The notes beneath the pieces were generated by a model, which did not search any database, was not told the DNA's origin, and was given only the letters and a program-made list of their open reading frames with translations. Of a DNA stretch of 64,000 nucleotides, positions 12,958 through 51,950 are shown in pieces. Source of the DNA: Spirochaetota bacterium. GTDB lineage: Bacteria > Spirochaetota > UBA4802 > UBA5368. How positions within the stretch are numbered: position 1 is the stretch's first letter; every line of letters begins with the position of its first letter. The stretch lies in contig SCSX01000018.1 in the NCBI GenBank assembly GCA_004297825.1, positions 1-64,000 on the forward strand, given 5' to 3'. Position numbers and translations under genes: made by a program.

Positions 12958-13992
12958 ATGAGCATAGTTTCATGCAAGCCCACGATCACCCGAAAGGAGC
13001 TCGAGAGCGTTCTCGACTGCCTTATCAGCGAAAAACTCGAATCCGGCGACATTATCAAGAGTTTCGAGTCGCAGGTATCCGAACTCACCGGGCTCAAGTA
13101 CGCTCTCGCGACCAATTCGCTCACCTCGGCATATCACCTCGCATTTATTGCACTCGATCTTAAGCCGGGTGACGAGGTCTTGCTGCCGTCCTACTTCGAC
13201 CCCGCACCGCTCAACGCCCTGCGTCTCATGGGGGCCCTGCCCGTGCTGGTGGATATCGACGAGAATGCCCTGATTCCGTCTGTCGGGCAGGTCAGGGAAA
13301 AAATTACCACGGCGACGAAGGCCCTGGTTCTGGGCCATACCTTTGGCTTCATGGTACCCATGGCGGAATACCGGGAACTGGGCGTACCCCTAATAGAGGA
13401 TATTTCGCATGTAATCGGGGCGGAATACGAGGAGAAGTCCGCGGGCCAGGACGGTTTGATCACCATCGCCTCGTTCGCACCCTCCATGATGATTACCACT
13501 GGCAACGGCGGGGTCGTGCTCACCAACAACTCAAGGCATTTTTCCTCGATGCGCGACTCAAGGTCATCTTCCGGACCGATCCCTTCTTTCGATTACACCA
13601 TGACCGATTTCCAGGGCGCGATGGGCGTTTCCCAGTTATCCCGGCTCCAGGACTTTATCAGGCGCAGGAGGGATATCGCGAGGGTTTACCATGAGGTCTT
13701 GAAAAATACGCCGCACCGCACGATTTACGCATTCAGCGACGGTTTCGTATACCAATCCTTTCCGATCCTGTTTGACGCCAGCGCCGAAAAGACGGAAAAA
13801 TTCTGGAAGAAAAGCGGCATCGAGGTGATTCATCCCTGTGCGGTCCCGTTGCATCAGCATCTGGGCTTGAGAGGAATGGATTACCCGAATAGCGACAGGA
13901 TGTCTAAAAAACTCTATGCCCTTCCCGTCTATCCGACCTTATCCAAGAAGGAAATCGAGAAAATTGCGAAGACCCTCGCTAAGTTTATCTAA
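12958..13992 (+). CDS. DegT/DnrJ/EryC1/StrS aminotransferase-fold protein lacking the PLP lysine
   Basis: 344 aa, fold-type I PLP enzyme of the sugar-aminotransferase (DegT) family by the motifs ALATNSLTSAYHLAF, GDEVLLPSYFD and LIEDISHVIGAEY. The usual active-site segment SFxxxKxxxxGEGG reads SFAPSMMITTGNGG. The Schiff-base Lys is Met177 and the following Glu is Asn. It is therefore unlikely to be a normal transaminase. It may be a pseudo-enzyme, a partner subunit, or act like ColD-type relatives that use another residue. The start at 12958 has GAGG upstream; an in-frame TTG at 12901 is less likely. queD follows after 34 nt. Confidence 0.8.
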   Translation: MSIVSCKPTITRKELESVLDCLISEKLESGDIIKSFESQVSELTGLKYALATNSLTSAYHLAFIALDLKPGDEVLLPSYFDPAPLNALRLMGALPVLVDIDENALIPSVGQVREKITTATKALVLGHTFGFMVPMAEYRELGVPLIEDISHVIGAEYEEKSAGQDGLITIASFAPSMMITTGNGGVVLTNNSRHFSSMRDSRSSSGPIPSFDYTMTDFQGAMGVSQLSRLQDFIRRRRDIARVYHEVLKNTPHRTIYAFSDGFVYQSFPILFDASAEKTEKFWKKSGIEVIHPCAVPLHQHLGLRGMDYPNSDRMSKKLYALPVYPTLSKKEIEKIAKTLAKFI

Positions 13993-14026
13993 ACAGGGGA
14001 CTTCGAGCACCCCATGAGGGAACCAA

Positions 14027-14407
14027 ATGTATATTCTCACTGTTGAAGACAGTTTTGCCTCGGCCCACCAGCTGAACGGATATAAGGGCAAATGTGAAAA
14101 CCTGCACGGACACAACTGGCGCGTCGTAGTGAGCGTTCGGGGACGTACGCTCAATAAAACGGGTCTTCTCATCGATTTTCACGACCTCAAGGCGTTGCTA
14201 AAACCGATTATCGCCGAGCTCGATCATAAAAATCTGAACGAATTGCCTTTTTTCAGGGATAAGAATCCCAGTTCTGAAAATATTGCCGCTCACATAGCCC
14301 TTCTCCTGGGGGACAAGCTTTCAGGGTTTGGAGCCATGGCAGAGCTTGAATCCGTGGTTGTCTGGGAATCCGACACCTCGCGCTGCACCTATATTCCTGA
14401 GCGGTAA
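14027..14407 (+). CDS. queD: 6-carboxy-5,6,7,8-tetrahydropterin synthase (QueD/PTPS family)
   Basis: 126 aa, the usual size. It converts dihydroneopterin triphosphate to 6-carboxytetrahydropterin in queuosine/7-deazaguanine synthesis. The zinc ligands (SAHQL and HGH), the catalytic Cys in KCENLHGHNW, the Asp-His pair in LDHKNLNELP and the C-terminal Glu (VVWESDTSRC) are all present, so it looks active. No queC, queE or queF lies nearby. Its only operon partner is the DegT-like protein, which suggests a pterin-related role for the pair. Confidence 0.88.
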   Translation: MYILTVEDSFASAHQLNGYKGKCENLHGHNWRVVVSVRGRTLNKTGLLIDFHDLKALLKPIIAELDHKNLNELPFFRDKNPSSENIAAHIALLLGDKLSGFGAMAELESVVVWESDTSRCTYIPER

Positions 14408-14864: not shown

Positions 14865-15251
14865 ATGTCCGAAAATACGGTTTCGTCGGAACCAGTTAAA
14901 GAACCGCTCAATCCCGACCGGAATGCAGTGGCCAGGGAGGCGCGTGCGCTCCTGGAACAGGAAAACATAAATGCGGCGGTCCGGGACTTCAAGGCGGATT
15001 CCGAGGAAAAAAAACTGGCCCTTGAATTTATAAACGGGCACATGCAATTCATGCGGGAAACCGTGGAGAACGACCGTAAAAACGGCTTGCTCAGGAAAGA
15101 TCTGGAAATAAGGGACCTTGTCTCCCATATCAACATGATGCTGAAACACAGGGATGAGGGGCTGTTCTTTACGCTCGTAAAGATGAGCCCCGTGCACTAC
15201 AAGGCGGTCAACAAGGACTTGGTCCAGGTGGCGAATAAAAAAGAGGAATGA
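14865..15251 (+). CDS. Hypothetical protein, helical and charged
   Basis: 128 aa, soluble and predicted mostly alpha-helical, with many Glu, Lys and Arg residues (AREARALLEQENINAAVRDF, ETVENDRKNGLLRKDLEIRDL). No signal peptide, membrane span or catalytic motif was recognised. It lies after the lipoprotein terminator with its own start and a weak GAGA site. It converges on the GH57 gene, with only 3 nt between the two stops. Function unknown. Confidence 0.65.
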   Translation: MSENTVSSEPVKEPLNPDRNAVAREARALLEQENINAAVRDFKADSEEKKLALEFINGHMQFMRETVENDRKNGLLRKDLEIRDLVSHINMMLKHRDEGLFFTLVKMSPVHYKAVNKDLVQVANKKEE

Positions 15252-46241: not shown

Positions 46242-49200
46242 CTAGAAAACGAGCGAAAAATTCATCCCCAGTTCGTAGGACATGATTTCCCGGTAAACAT
46301 TGCCCGTCTCCCGATTCCGGAATTTTTCGAGGGCCCATCTTCCCACCAGCCCCCCCTGGACATTTTTATGAAGATCGAGTGTGAGCTTTCCCGTCACCAG
46401 GTGCTGGTCGTAAGGCTCGGGCGATACGGTCCGGATGTAATCATACCGGTTCAGGAGCATCGAGTACTCTATTGAAAAAATCGGGAACCCGGTGAGGGTG
46501 TAAAAAGCGGAAAAGTACTCGTGAATCCAGTGCACGTCGGTTTCGAAAATTGCGGAGAACCGGTATCCCCGGTCTATTTCCCGGAAATAGGGATTTTTCT
46601 GCATGTTATCAAGGTAAACATCGTCCCTGGGGTCGTTCCCGCCGCCCTGGTCGATATATTCCTCCCGCTGCCGGTTTCGCAGATCCACGCCGGCCTTGAG
46701 CCCGAGACTTGCCCTGTCGCGCTTGAACACGATTCCCAGCTCAGGGGTATGCACGTCTTCCCGGACGTTGGAAGTAATGATCATGTTCCTGCTGTAATCA
46801 TACCCCAGGCTCAGGGTAACGGCATGGAACGGGATCCCCGGGAGATTGGGCCGGAAAAACCAGAAGCTGAAAAAACGCATGAGGTCGAAGCTCAGGTCCG
46901 CGTTCGAGGTGAAGGTTATCACCTGCTGGGGAACACCCTCCACCGCCTGGCGCTCGCTCACCTGGTTGAGGCCCGACGCCAGGGCCAGCGTCCATCTCTG
47001 GAAATTGAGCGTCGAATTCAGGGAAAAGTTATCGATAAGCCTCAGTCCGTTATCATAATCCTGGGCGCTCTCCCCGTCCGAGAAGGTGAGGGGGTTGTTG
47101 AACCGCGCGTATGTAAAATCGCGGCCCCGCGCGTAGTTTCCCCTTCCCGTCATGAAATACCAGGGGGGATATTTCGCCATGTTGAATGCCTCGCCCGCGA
47201 TTCCGTCAAAGGTCCTGTTGATGCCGTAACGCTCCGAGAAGGACGACGCCCCCTCACCCTCGTAGGGAATACCTTCCTCCCGAAACTGCAGCGAACGCGT
47301 GTAGCCGAAATTCATGGAGCTGATAAAATCGAGATTTTTTGAAGCGCTGAAATCGAACGGCAGGTTCCACGCGCTGGACACGAAGCTGCGCGCGTCCTTG
47401 TCCCTGCGGTAGCGCCCCGAGAGCAGCCTCTCGTTGTCGTCGTAGTCCCGGAACTGGTTTTCAAAATATACCATCTCGCCTTTCCAGGAGGGCGATACGG
47501 CCCCGATACCCTTGAGTCCCAGGTTCAATGCGCCCTTCTTGTTTCGCTCGACGAAACGGTAGTCGGAGCCGTATAAGAAGGGAATGTGAAAATCGCCCTC
47601 CATGTCTCCCTGGACGCCTGTGTCCGTGTACGAGGAACGGCCCCGGATATCGACGATCTCCTGCGAATACACGGTGATCGCCGGCTGCACGTAGACGTGT
47701 GAGCCCTGGTAATCCGCCGTGAGCTCCGCGCTCGATGATTGGCGCTTTTCCCGCTCGCTTACGGGTACGGACTGGTTTAGAATGTTTTTCGGGAGCGTGG
47801 GAGAGCCCCGCGTGACGCTTTCCTGCTTGAAGGAGGTATCGACGAGCAGCGAGGCAAGGAGCTTTCCCCCCAGGAAATCGTCCAGGTTCTCGCGTACGAT
47901 GACCACGGGATTCTGCACATCCTCCTCGCTATCCTCGCGGAAGATGTCGGCGGAAAGGTAATCGCTGTGGGAATTTCTGTACCGATCGTTCTTGTAGACG
48001 AGCTTCACGCCCGGAACCGCCGTTGCGGAGGGTGCGAAATCGGACTCGATGCTTAAGCTGGATCTGCCGGATTTCCCCCGCTTCTGGACCGATACGTTTT
48101 CGTTCTGCGAATCGGTCCGGGAGTCTTCCGTGATATAGTCGAGCCGCGCGCTCCAGGCCGGCAGGATCTTTACCGACGAGAATATCTCCCGGTAGCGCTC
48201 CATGACGTCCGACTGGGTCTTCCCCACCGAGCTGAATTGCGCGCCGTGTCCCTTCTCGATCACTTTTATCTCGAGGTCCGAGAGTATCGGAACCCCCGCC
48301 GCCGTTTTGAAAAGCGGCCTCTTCCCCCTTATTTCGCCCTCGTACCAGTAGGCGCTGTCCACCAGCGTTTCGGCGTCCCCGGAGTAAATATCGTTGACCC
48401 AGATTTTTCCGGCGCCCCCGGTGCTTCCGCTATCAATGATTATCTCCATATAACTGACGCGTTTCAGGTCGGGATGCCCGGTGGCCGAAATCCGGTCGAT
48501 TCCATTTGCACCGCTTTTGAGGTTGAGTTTCACTTCCCGCCAGATGTCCGGAAAATCGGGAATGAATTCATATGCGTAATAATCATTCTCCGAAGAACCT
48601 ACACGCACGCCGATTTTATAAGGCAGCGTCGACCTGCAGTTCAGCCAGAGTGAAAGGGTTTTATAAAACCGCAAATCCATTTCCTTGGCGAACTTGCGCG
48701 ATACGGAACCGGTAAAGGTTCCCGGGAGGTTGTAATCGATCTGCATCGCGGTTTCCTGCTCGATCTCGAGCTCGCGGTTCGTTTTTTCTCCGTGAAGCTC
48801 CTGGTACACATCGCTTTTTTTCGAAAGGAAGGAATTGGACCGATACTCCGGGTCGTTTATCGAATCGACCATGGTGACGCTGAACCTGTCCGGGTCCTCA
48901 TCTGAAGTCCCATTAATTTTAATATTGCGCCATCGCGACGACACGAAGCGCATGCTGTCGATGTAGATCCTTCCCGCATTGGGCGCGCTCCCCGCCAGGA
49001 AAAGCCTGATCGACCTGACCTGCTTCAGCAGGGAAATGTTGTCGGTGAACGCGGTAGAGCTCCTTTCGATGTAGAGTCGCGCCATCTGCCATGCGGTGTC
49101 GCCGGGTGCGACGGTTATAGGCGTCGCGGAGGCGCCCTTCAGGATCGCGCCCTGGAGCCGGACGATGCTTTCGGCGGCGTCCAGCGTCCCGTTCCCGTTC

Positions 49201-51950
49201 AGGTCCTCGGAGTTGAGTATCCCGTCGCCGCGGGTCGAATCGGACAGCCCCGGTCCGGAGCCTATCACGGTATCGGTGCCCCCGGAGGGGTTGAACCGGT
49301 ATCCCCGGTCCTCGGTCTGGCTGCGGGTCGGGTCGTAGTCGAGGAAACCGTTCGCGTTAAGGTCTTCCGTGTCCAGGGAGCCGTCGCCGTCTGCATCCTC
49401 GTTTATCGAACCCAGGTCCAGGAAAAGGTTTACGGGGCTTTCGAGCGCCTCCGCCCCGGAACCGGCACGGTACCATATCTCGACGTACTGGAGCCCGGAA
49501 AAATCCACCGCGTCCGACGACAGGTTGCGCGTAACGATGGGAACGGTGGTTCCCGAAGAGCCCAGGTCAAAATCGAGCACCAGGGATCGCTGCGTCTCCG
49601 CCTTCTGGATGGAATCGGCTACGTGCCCGGTCGCCACGTTGTAGGGACCCGGCTTGACGGAATACGGGATCGTATACGGCGTAAAGCCCGTCCCCTGCAG
49701 GCGGTCGGGGCTCGATGGCTCGCGGTAGAATTTGTACAGTAAAAGCCCCCTCAGGTTCTGTGCCAGGGGATTAGGCATGGACGAGAGTATCCAGTCCTTC
49801 TCGGAGAGTGAGATCGACACCACCTCGTCCGCGGATTCCATGTCGTCTATGAGTCCCTTCCCGAAGGTGTTCACGTTCCGGTAGCTGCGGGCGTACTCGG
49901 CGTACGCCTTTACGTCCACGGGCGACGAATCGACGTGCACGCCGGGGAACAGGTTCACGAGCTCCTTCATGCGTTGTTCGCTCAGGAAGAGCGACATGTC
50001 GCCCTCGAGCACCAGGGTCTGCGTGGGCTCTGACCCCACCACCGGGATAACCCCGCCGCCCGCCGAGCGCGTAAAGAGCATGGTCCCCCCCACCAACAGG
50101 TCGCGCGAGAGACGGTAGTCGGCCCGCGCCCCGCCCACGAAGGACTGCGCCTCCGCCGCGAACGGGAGAAACTCGTACCTGATCTCGATCGCGGTCTCCG
50201 GCGAGATGACGGGGTTGTTCTGGTTCACGAAGGCGAAATACCCGGACGTGAGGTCCAGCGTGTAGAGGGAGGCGGGAATCTCGCGCCCGTCCACCTTGAC
50301 GCGTACGCTGTCCGGGATGATGTTGAAGTGCTTCAGCTGGAAGCTCCTGGCCTCCCGGTAATAGTCGACCCGCATCCTGAACGCGGACACATCCGCGATA
50401 TTGGATGCCTGTATCTCGCTATAGATCGCGGCCGCGACCGAAAGCGAAAGCCCGCTCCTGAACGGCTCCCTGAGCGAGAAGCCTATTATGCCCCTCGTGT
50501 AATCGACGGTATAGCTTCCAAGATCGCCCGTTTCCGTTTTCGTGAGGAGCCGCGTGCGCTCGAAAAACTTCAGGCTGAAATTATTTTGGAGAAGCTGCTG
50601 CTCCCCGACGTGATAAAACGAGCGCACCTCGTAGATGTCCAGGTTCATCACGCCGTCGCCGTTTTTATCGCCGTCGGACAATCCGTTCCTGTCCGCGTCT
50701 TCGTCTATCGAATAGCCGTACTTGATGAATACGAATATTTTTCCGGGAAACTGCGCGTCGCTGCGCTTCGCGGGATCCGACGACGAGGTGCTCCCTCCGT
50801 TCAGCGTGTAGACCGCGAATATCCGCGCGCCTGCGGGCACTGTTTTCAGGAACGTGACAAGCCCTGTCGCGAAATTGATCGTGTAGTCCGCGCCGGAGAC
50901 CATCTTCGTGTACTTCCCGTCGTCGATCGCGAGGGTGATCGCGTTCAGGTTGTTGAGCGGGTTCTGGTCGTCCACGTAGAGCTCGAAGCCCTGGGCGTCG
51001 ATATTTACCTGGTACGGCGTGAAGCTCGCCGGCGCGGAGGTGAAGGTCCGCGTGACATATGGGGCCCCCGGCGGCGCGCTCAGGTTGTCGTAGCGCTTGA
51101 AGGCCTCGATCTGGAAATAGGTGTTCCTGATATACTGGTATTCGGCGAGCGTGAGGTTTCCGGACGCGGAATTTCCGCGAAAATACTCGACCTCGGTTTC
51201 CCCCCGGGTGACGCTCCCGAAGGCCTTCACCGTGAGATTCCCCTTGCGCACGGTGGTATCGATCCCCAGTCCGCTCGTGGAGGTCTCGTCGTAAACGGCG
51301 TACTTGGAATTGTTGAGCTTGATGCTGATATCGCCGGCGTTGATCTCGCGGATGACCTCGTCGTCGCGCACCGCCTTGTACTGCATGCGATACTGGTTCT
51401 CGTTGTTCTGGCGCCTGCTGTCGTGATCGATATAAACCGTGAGCCGGTCGCCCACGCGGCCTTCCATGTGAAGCTGCATCTCGCTCTCCACCGTGGTGCC
51501 CGACTGGATCACGCGCGAAACGGGCTCGTCGGTGTCGAAGAGCTTGTATTTCCGGCTCGTGAACGCCGACTTCCCGCGGAGCAGGTTCCATTTCGCCGCG
51601 CCGTACGAATTGATGTCCACGTCATCGCGCTCCTCAAGGACCAGCCTTCCCTCGTCCATGCTCTCGTAGAGGAGCGTGTATTTGGGCTCTATGATGTAGC
51701 GATGCCAGTCTCCCGCGTGATAGGCGAGGGGCGCGTTGGGGTCGACCGGGAAGAGGGAATCGATACCGCCCTTTCCCCCCTCTTGAATGACGGGGGGAAC
51801 CGGCCGGCCCGTGCGCTCCTCCAGGTAGGTGCGGAGCATGTCGGTAAATGCGCGCCCTTTCCCGTTTTCCTGGGAAAGCGCATAGGTGAGCGCGGAGAGG
51901 GTCCCCGCCAGGATGCCGAGTTTCGCAAGAAGGGGCAGTCGCTGTATCAT
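46242..51950 (-). CDS. Giant SprA-like outer-membrane beta-barrel protein
   Basis: 1902 aa with a signal peptide (LAKLGILAGTLSALTYALS). It is beta-rich throughout, with SprA-type landmarks: GDISIKLNNSKYAVYDETST near 210, an IDDMESADEVVSISLSEKDW block near 700 (SprA has VDDFEG...W), and a C-terminal half of amphipathic strands ending in Phe (GMNFSLVF). Asp/Gly/Asn-rich calcium-type loops occur near 420, 855 and 910. In Bacteroidota SprA is the type 9 secretion pore of about 2400 aa. No other T9SS gene lies in the window, and function here is inferred. Confidence 0.72.
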   Translation of the reverse strand: MIQRLPLLAKLGILAGTLSALTYALSQENGKGRAFTDMLRTYLEERTGRPVPPVIQEGGKGGIDSLFPVDPNAPLAYHAGDWHRYIIEPKYTLLYESMDEGRLVLEERDDVDINSYGAAKWNLLRGKSAFTSRKYKLFDTDEPVSRVIQSGTTVESEMQLHMEGRVGDRLTVYIDHDSRRQNNENQYRMQYKAVRDDEVIREINAGDISIKLNNSKYAVYDETSTSGLGIDTTVRKGNLTVKAFGSVTRGETEVEYFRGNSASGNLTLAEYQYIRNTYFQIEAFKRYDNLSAPPGAPYVTRTFTSAPASFTPYQVNIDAQGFELYVDDQNPLNNLNAITLAIDDGKYTKMVSGADYTINFATGLVTFLKTVPAGARIFAVYTLNGGSTSSSDPAKRSDAQFPGKIFVFIKYGYSIDEDADRNGLSDGDKNGDGVMNLDIYEVRSFYHVGEQQLLQNNFSLKFFERTRLLTKTETGDLGSYTVDYTRGIIGFSLREPFRSGLSLSVAAAIYSEIQASNIADVSAFRMRVDYYREARSFQLKHFNIIPDSVRVKVDGREIPASLYTLDLTSGYFAFVNQNNPVISPETAIEIRYEFLPFAAEAQSFVGGARADYRLSRDLLVGGTMLFTRSAGGGVIPVVGSEPTQTLVLEGDMSLFLSEQRMKELVNLFPGVHVDSSPVDVKAYAEYARSYRNVNTFGKGLIDDMESADEVVSISLSEKDWILSSMPNPLAQNLRGLLLYKFYREPSSPDRLQGTGFTPYTIPYSVKPGPYNVATGHVADSIQKAETQRSLVLDFDLGSSGTTVPIVTRNLSSDAVDFSGLQYVEIWYRAGSGAEALESPVNLFLDLGSINEDADGDGSLDTEDLNANGFLDYDPTRSQTEDRGYRFNPSGGTDTVIGSGPGLSDSTRGDGILNSEDLNGNGTLDAAESIVRLQGAILKGASATPITVAPGDTAWQMARLYIERSSTAFTDNISLLKQVRSIRLFLAGSAPNAGRIYIDSMRFVSSRWRNIKINGTSDEDPDRFSVTMVDSINDPEYRSNSFLSKKSDVYQELHGEKTNRELEIEQETAMQIDYNLPGTFTGSVSRKFAKEMDLRFYKTLSLWLNCRSTLPYKIGVRVGSSENDYYAYEFIPDFPDIWREVKLNLKSGANGIDRISATGHPDLKRVSYMEIIIDSGSTGGAGKIWVNDIYSGDAETLVDSAYWYEGEIRGKRPLFKTAAGVPILSDLEIKVIEKGHGAQFSSVGKTQSDVMERYREIFSSVKILPAWSARLDYITEDSRTDSQNENVSVQKRGKSGRSSLSIESDFAPSATAVPGVKLVYKNDRYRNSHSDYLSADIFREDSEEDVQNPVVIVRENLDDFLGGKLLASLLVDTSFKQESVTRGSPTLPKNILNQSVPVSEREKRQSSSAELTADYQGSHVYVQPAITVYSQEIVDIRGRSSYTDTGVQGDMEGDFHIPFLYGSDYRFVERNKKGALNLGLKGIGAVSPSWKGEMVYFENQFRDYDDNERLLSGRYRRDKDARSFVSSAWNLPFDFSASKNLDFISSMNFGYTRSLQFREEGIPYEGEGASSFSERYGINRTFDGIAGEAFNMAKYPPWYFMTGRGNYARGRDFTYARFNNPLTFSDGESAQDYDNGLRLIDNFSLNSTLNFQRWTLALASGLNQVSERQAVEGVPQQVITFTSNADLSFDLMRFFSFWFFRPNLPGIPFHAVTLSLGYDYSRNMIITSNVREDVHTPELGIVFKRDRASLGLKAGVDLRNRQREEYIDQGGGNDPRDDVYLDNMQKNPYFREIDRGYRFSAIFETDVHWIHEYFSAFYTLTGFPIFSIEYSMLLNRYDYIRTVSPEPYDQHLVTGKLTLDLHKNVQGGLVGRWALEKFRNRETGNVYREIMSYELGMNFSLVF

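Follow-up and report, generated by a model that had tools for sequence, protein, structure and literature searches.

A lysine-less DegT-fold protein of Spirochaetota, a frequent neighbour of QueD and candidate PLP-independent pseudo-aminotransferase

The DegT-QueD locus

The window, i.e., the whole stretch of 64,000 nucleotides of spirochaete DNA analysed here, carries a gene for a DegT-fold protein without its catalytic lysine, followed on the same strand by a gene for a QueD-type pterin enzyme. The features relevant to the argument are as follows.

12958..13992, + strand: DegT-fold protein of 344 aa, Schiff-base Lys missing (Pfam PF01041)
13120..13122, + strand: codon of Leu55, which replaces Gly in the SGT phosphate loop (88-row comparison)
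13399..13401, + strand: codon of Asp148, an Asp in 71 of 71 lysine-less rows
13486..13488, + strand: codon of Met177, at the position of the PLP Schiff-base Lys (alignment to 3bn1)
13504..13506, + strand: codon of Asn183, which replaces the Glu of TTGEGG, giving TTGNGG (alignment to 3bn1)
13591..13593, + strand: codon of Asp212, which replaces the phosphate-contacting Asn (88-row comparison)
14027..14407, + strand: QueD / PTPS-I/III hybrid-type enzyme, 34 bp past the DegT stop codon (over the TIGR03367 cut-off)
14093..14113, + strand: CENLHGH motif, which unites CxxxHGH of QueD and ExxHGH of PTPS-III (motif definitions in PMC5041015)

The Pfam profile DegT_DnrJ_EryC1 (PF01041) matches the product of the first gene over its full length (residues 9-340, E 5.6e-62), with 210.5 bits against a gathering score of 19.8 bits; the NCBIfam family closest to it is PseC (E 5.6e-53), but it scores under all NCBIfam equivalog cut-offs. 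A preliminary description of this DNA had placed Met at the Schiff-base Lys and Asn at the neighbouring Glu, and both assignments are borne out by an alignment with a perosamine synthase of known structure, 3bn1: because its motif SFFGNKIITTGEGG falls on SFAPSMMITTGNGG of the window protein, the catalytic Lys corresponds to Met177 and the Glu of GEGG to Asn183. The remaining fold motifs had been regarded as conserved, which is true of most of them, but the Gly and Asn of the PLP phosphate site are also lost (Leu55 and Asp212). We take the roles of these residues from the structures of ArnB and PseC: the SGT-loop Gly binds the PLP phosphate, the Asn replaced by Asp212 contacts the PLP phosphate of the partner subunit, and the Asp at position 148 is, in active relatives, the partner of the PLP ring nitrogen. 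Compared with the DegT/DnrJ/EryC1/StrS sugar aminotransferases (PseC, ArnB, perosamine synthase), the window protein has the full-length fold, the Asp for the ring nitrogen (Asp148), His299, TTGxG and PLH, but neither the Schiff-base Lys nor the SGT Gly and phosphate Asn.

The second gene encodes an intact enzyme, which scores 98.6 bits against TIGR03367 (cut-off 89.25) and has all the active-site residues H14, C23, H27, H29 and D66-H67. Its earlier designation as a complete 6-carboxytetrahydropterin synthase holds in this sense, but the motif calls for a qualification: CxxxHGH denotes QueD and ExxHGH the folate enzyme PTPS-III, whereas CExxHGH hybrids serve both pathways (PMC5041015). Among the 46 genomes of the order (G000-G045, the window belonging to G000), every DegT-adjacent QueD carries CExxHGH. 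FolB was not found in 43 of the 46, including the genome of the window, and is present only in G013, G025 and G037; FolK is almost universal. Two genomes (G009 and G018) have no real QueC and keep the DegT-QueD pair, and two others (G014 and G026) encode, beside the kept pair, a second QueD near QueC with the pure QueD motif CAYLHGH. Given the CExxHGH motif, the absence of FolB, the QueC-less genomes and the second QueD, the QueD of the pair probably works in folate synthesis, and may or may not work in queuosine synthesis as well. It looks more like the folate/queuosine hybrid enzyme PTPS-I/III (COG0720, PMC5041015) than like a plain QueD, although most genomes of the order keep QueC, such that both roles are possible and the hybrid activity is a predicted one.

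Conservation in the order and a single loss in the phylum

The protein search covered 59 relatives and was complemented by fetched loci. An orthologue of the DegT gene is present in 44 of the 46 order genomes (53-79% identity, aligned from the same start Met), and none of the 44 has Lys at the Schiff-base position, which is mostly Met and otherwise Asp, Gly, Ser or Cys. The dN/dS ratio is 0.03-0.09 in nine close pairs, synonymous sites being saturated in a tenth; by this measure, the gene is under strong purifying selection, as had been surmised. A sequencing error, a local mutation or a pseudogene is ruled out by the 44 orthologues together with these ratios. In the order, the gene is located near ribosomal protein genes, RlpA and QueD. 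Most of these genomes are fragmented and metagenome-assembled in appearance, and single absences may represent gaps; G016 (94% complete), with FolK and QueC present and without the DegT orthologue, QueD, FolE and FolE2, may be such a case. Two further open reading frames of the window have no Pfam match: one of 128 aa (14865-15251, + strand), found downstream of the DegT-QueD pair in several order genomes, and one of 1902 aa (46242-51950, - strand).

When 393 spirochaete genomes were searched with a profile built from the order orthologues, 142 of them had a match at E<=1e-60. In a tree of 88 homologues from Spirochaetota, a single change separates Lys or Arg at the Schiff-base position from all other residues, as it does in an earlier 71-row tree; the 71 lysine-less rows of the larger tree form one clade, with moderate support at its base (SH-aLRT 86), and the remaining 17 rows have Lys or Arg. 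The family labels require 32 changes for 33 groups, i.e., the minimum, and the tree therefore fits vertical inheritance. Lys is kept in families f9, f14, f16 and f25 and in one row of f15 (L131). Arg occupies the position in the Brachyspira-like f15 (name inferred) and in f44, where the SGT loop and the phosphate Asn are kept (L126-L132, L139, L157). In f24 (Treponemataceae, name inferred), f13, f35, f43, f50 and f12, diverged members immediately precede an NAD kinase gene, a link confirmed by profile. The same arrangement with a lysine-less DegT was seen at loci L161-L190, in treponeme-like and other families, including G096, a treponeme-like genome of 1.1 Mb in a single contig that holds the lysine-less DegT without QueD.

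Other parts of the cofactor site changed along the same division. The SGT-loop Gly is found in 16 of the 17 Lys/Arg rows versus 1 of the 71 lysine-less rows, and the phosphate Asn in 13 of 17 versus 1 of 71, whereas Asp148 is shared by 16 of 17 and 71 of 71. The first 54 lysine-less rows show no variation at Thr180, Gly184 and Pro323; His299 is present in 49, and Asp occupies the Asp212 position in 43. Judging from these counts, the cofactor site was lost along with the Lys, and other parts of the pocket remained constrained. Together with the tree, the alignments indicate that the Lys and much of the cofactor pocket were lost once, deep in spirochaete evolution.

Genomic neighbours and possible partners

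The sugar-related genes found near DegT in some lineages are the best present hint on its role, albeit a weak one. They suggest a possible, if doubtful, function as part of a glycan pathway specific to spirochaetes, for the surface or the flagella (nonulosonate-like, with SpsF/PseG-type and spiro-SPASM proteins), in which a descendant of a PseC/SpsC-like aminotransferase would bind a sugar nucleotide or catalyse a non-PLP step. The best NCBIfam match, to PseC, is in line with such an origin. Next to the DegT operon of f21, and divergent from it, are a spiro-SPASM gene (TIGR04321) and an SpsF-PseG fusion; three f34 loci have SpsF and SpsG-like genes no more than 5 kb from DegT, and f13 has one SpsF/PseG-like match ~6 kb off; a mannose-6-phosphate isomerase gene adjoins DegT in f34, a heptose GmhB/HldE-like one in f22 and a GlgC/GlmU-like one in f10. 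However, the order of the window has ribosomal protein genes, RlpA and QueD instead, and in other lineages it is rho, NAD kinase-recN or CheW that stands beside DegT (recN and NAD kinase of f10 and f21 were recognised by eye from start sequences).

Close to DegT, the intervals L134:6671-10569, L135:282-4376 and L120:126-2949 contain the spiro-SPASM radical SAM gene (the TIGR04321 test was on L134) and genes resembling SpsF/PseG. A CheW-like gene lies directly upstream of DegT in f21 and f8 (L134:6064-6531 and L137:4475-4942; the Pfam match is that of L137, and L134 belongs to the same cluster).

The proximity to QueD had previously been read as possibly pointing to a new pterin or deazapurine modification step. 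That DegT and QueD jointly process an intermediate, whether a pterin or a 7-deazaguanine, is, in our view, unlikely, even though the adjacency is not trivial. QueD adjoins DegT in 32 of the 44 order genomes that hold DegT, and the arrangement recurs in the distant families f18, f27 and f44, amid genes that are otherwise not shared and, in f18 and f44, with only 2 bp between the two; this recurrence exceeds what indifference predicts. Within the order, the pairing tracks the use of FolE2, which is present in 31 genomes and mutually exclusive with FolE, present in 11: QueD stands next to DegT in each of the 31 with FolE2 (at a distance of 3.2 kb in G008), and the 10 genomes with QueD elsewhere all have FolE (Fisher test 9e-10, with genomes treated as independent and kinship ignored). 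The pair is also kept in G009 and G018 without QueC, and in G014 and G026 despite the second, pure QueD. Nevertheless, in the 10 FolE genomes with a replaced QueD, DegT is still at its locus, and DegT is present where QueD was not found, namely, in f15, the f10 genomes and G096. Because DegT survives both the QueD swap and the lack of QueD, its functional dependence on QueD is unlikely, and strict coupling of the two, as an obligate pterin or deazapurine step would entail, is ruled out. Moreover, the CExxHGH motif and the absence of FolB explain the retention of this QueD through folate synthesis. On this genomic evidence, QueD is a frequent neighbour of DegT, not a necessary partner.

The QueDs located elsewhere form one clade (96/85), which includes one unreliable long row from G047, and in G011, G015 and G020 this other QueD adjoins FolE. 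Across G000-G045, the QueD copy and its location switch together with the type of GTP cyclohydrolase. We also considered that DegT might fill a missing GTP cyclohydrolase step, given that FolE (PF01227) is absent wherever the order has the pair, but FolE2 is present there.

A candidate cofactor-free DegT protein

Loss of the Lys does not by itself mean loss of the cofactor. In the PMP-dependent 3-dehydrases ColD and RfbH/E1, which have the DegT fold, His replaces Lys. The window protein could, by analogy with ColD and CDP-sugar 3-dehydrases, be a PMP- or PLP-dependent lysine-less enzyme, considering that Asp148 is invariant, that the TTGxG and PLH motifs are kept and that His does occur at the position in 8 of the first 54 lysine-less rows. 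We nonetheless regard this as quite improbable: the His is confined to some f11 and f22 rows, Met, Asp, Gly, Ser, Thr, Asn, Glu and Cys also occur at this position, the window protein has Met, almost every row lacks the Gly and Asn of the phosphate site, and no sugar cluster surrounds the window gene. The two subunits of a DegT dimer share their active sites, and most genomes hold at least one other DegT gene, but a dead subunit paired with an active paralogue, comparable to SPTLC1 in serine palmitoyltransferase in being a PLP fold without Lys under selection, is very improbable. Evidence against such a partner being obligate is that no other DegT was found at E<=1e-10 in G009 (97% complete), G018 (89%) and G030 (71%), which hold this one alone.

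We cautiously favour the reading that the protein is an ancient PLP-independent pseudo-aminotransferase of Spirochaetota, vertically inherited, with a pocket that binds another ligand. PLP chemistry would have been given up once, early in the phylum, and the DegT-fold protein kept since. It would still form the usual dimer, and an amine or guanidine-like group would be a better match than a phosphate for Asp148 and the newly acquired Asp212; the protein may then work as a cofactor-free binding or regulatory protein. Asp148, Thr180, Gly184 and, mostly, His299 are retained in the sequences. The lost phosphate contacts may still be compatible with weak or rearranged binding of PLP or PMP; an AlphaFold model (eight sequences) had a pLDDT of 47.6, too low for inspection of the pocket. 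In the order of the window, DegT is probably co-transcribed with the PTPS-I/III-type pterin enzyme, and the DegT-QueD pair would be an old gene arrangement, lost upon a swap of the pterin module, and not a requirement. Of the two possibilities raised in the preliminary description, the regulatory pseudo-enzyme survives as a candidate, and the pterin step is not supported. Its statement that no system of this kind had been described agrees with our literature searches, which yielded nothing on this DegT family, TP0440 or spiro-SPASM.

More tentatively, a single conversion may have left the whole phylum with a DegT fold that works without a cofactor, has a new pocket chemistry and fills a core cellular role, kept even in the minimal treponeme-like genome. 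If so, we know of no earlier description of a DegT lineage whose function requires neither PLP nor PMP. Similarity-based annotation probably calls these genes sugar aminotransferases; if they perform no PLP chemistry, a protein conserved in spirochaetes, among them pathogens, would bear the wrong name and its true function would have escaped study. A single loss, with present-day representatives of the Lys, Arg and lysine-less forms, would make this family a good case for the repurposing of a PLP fold.
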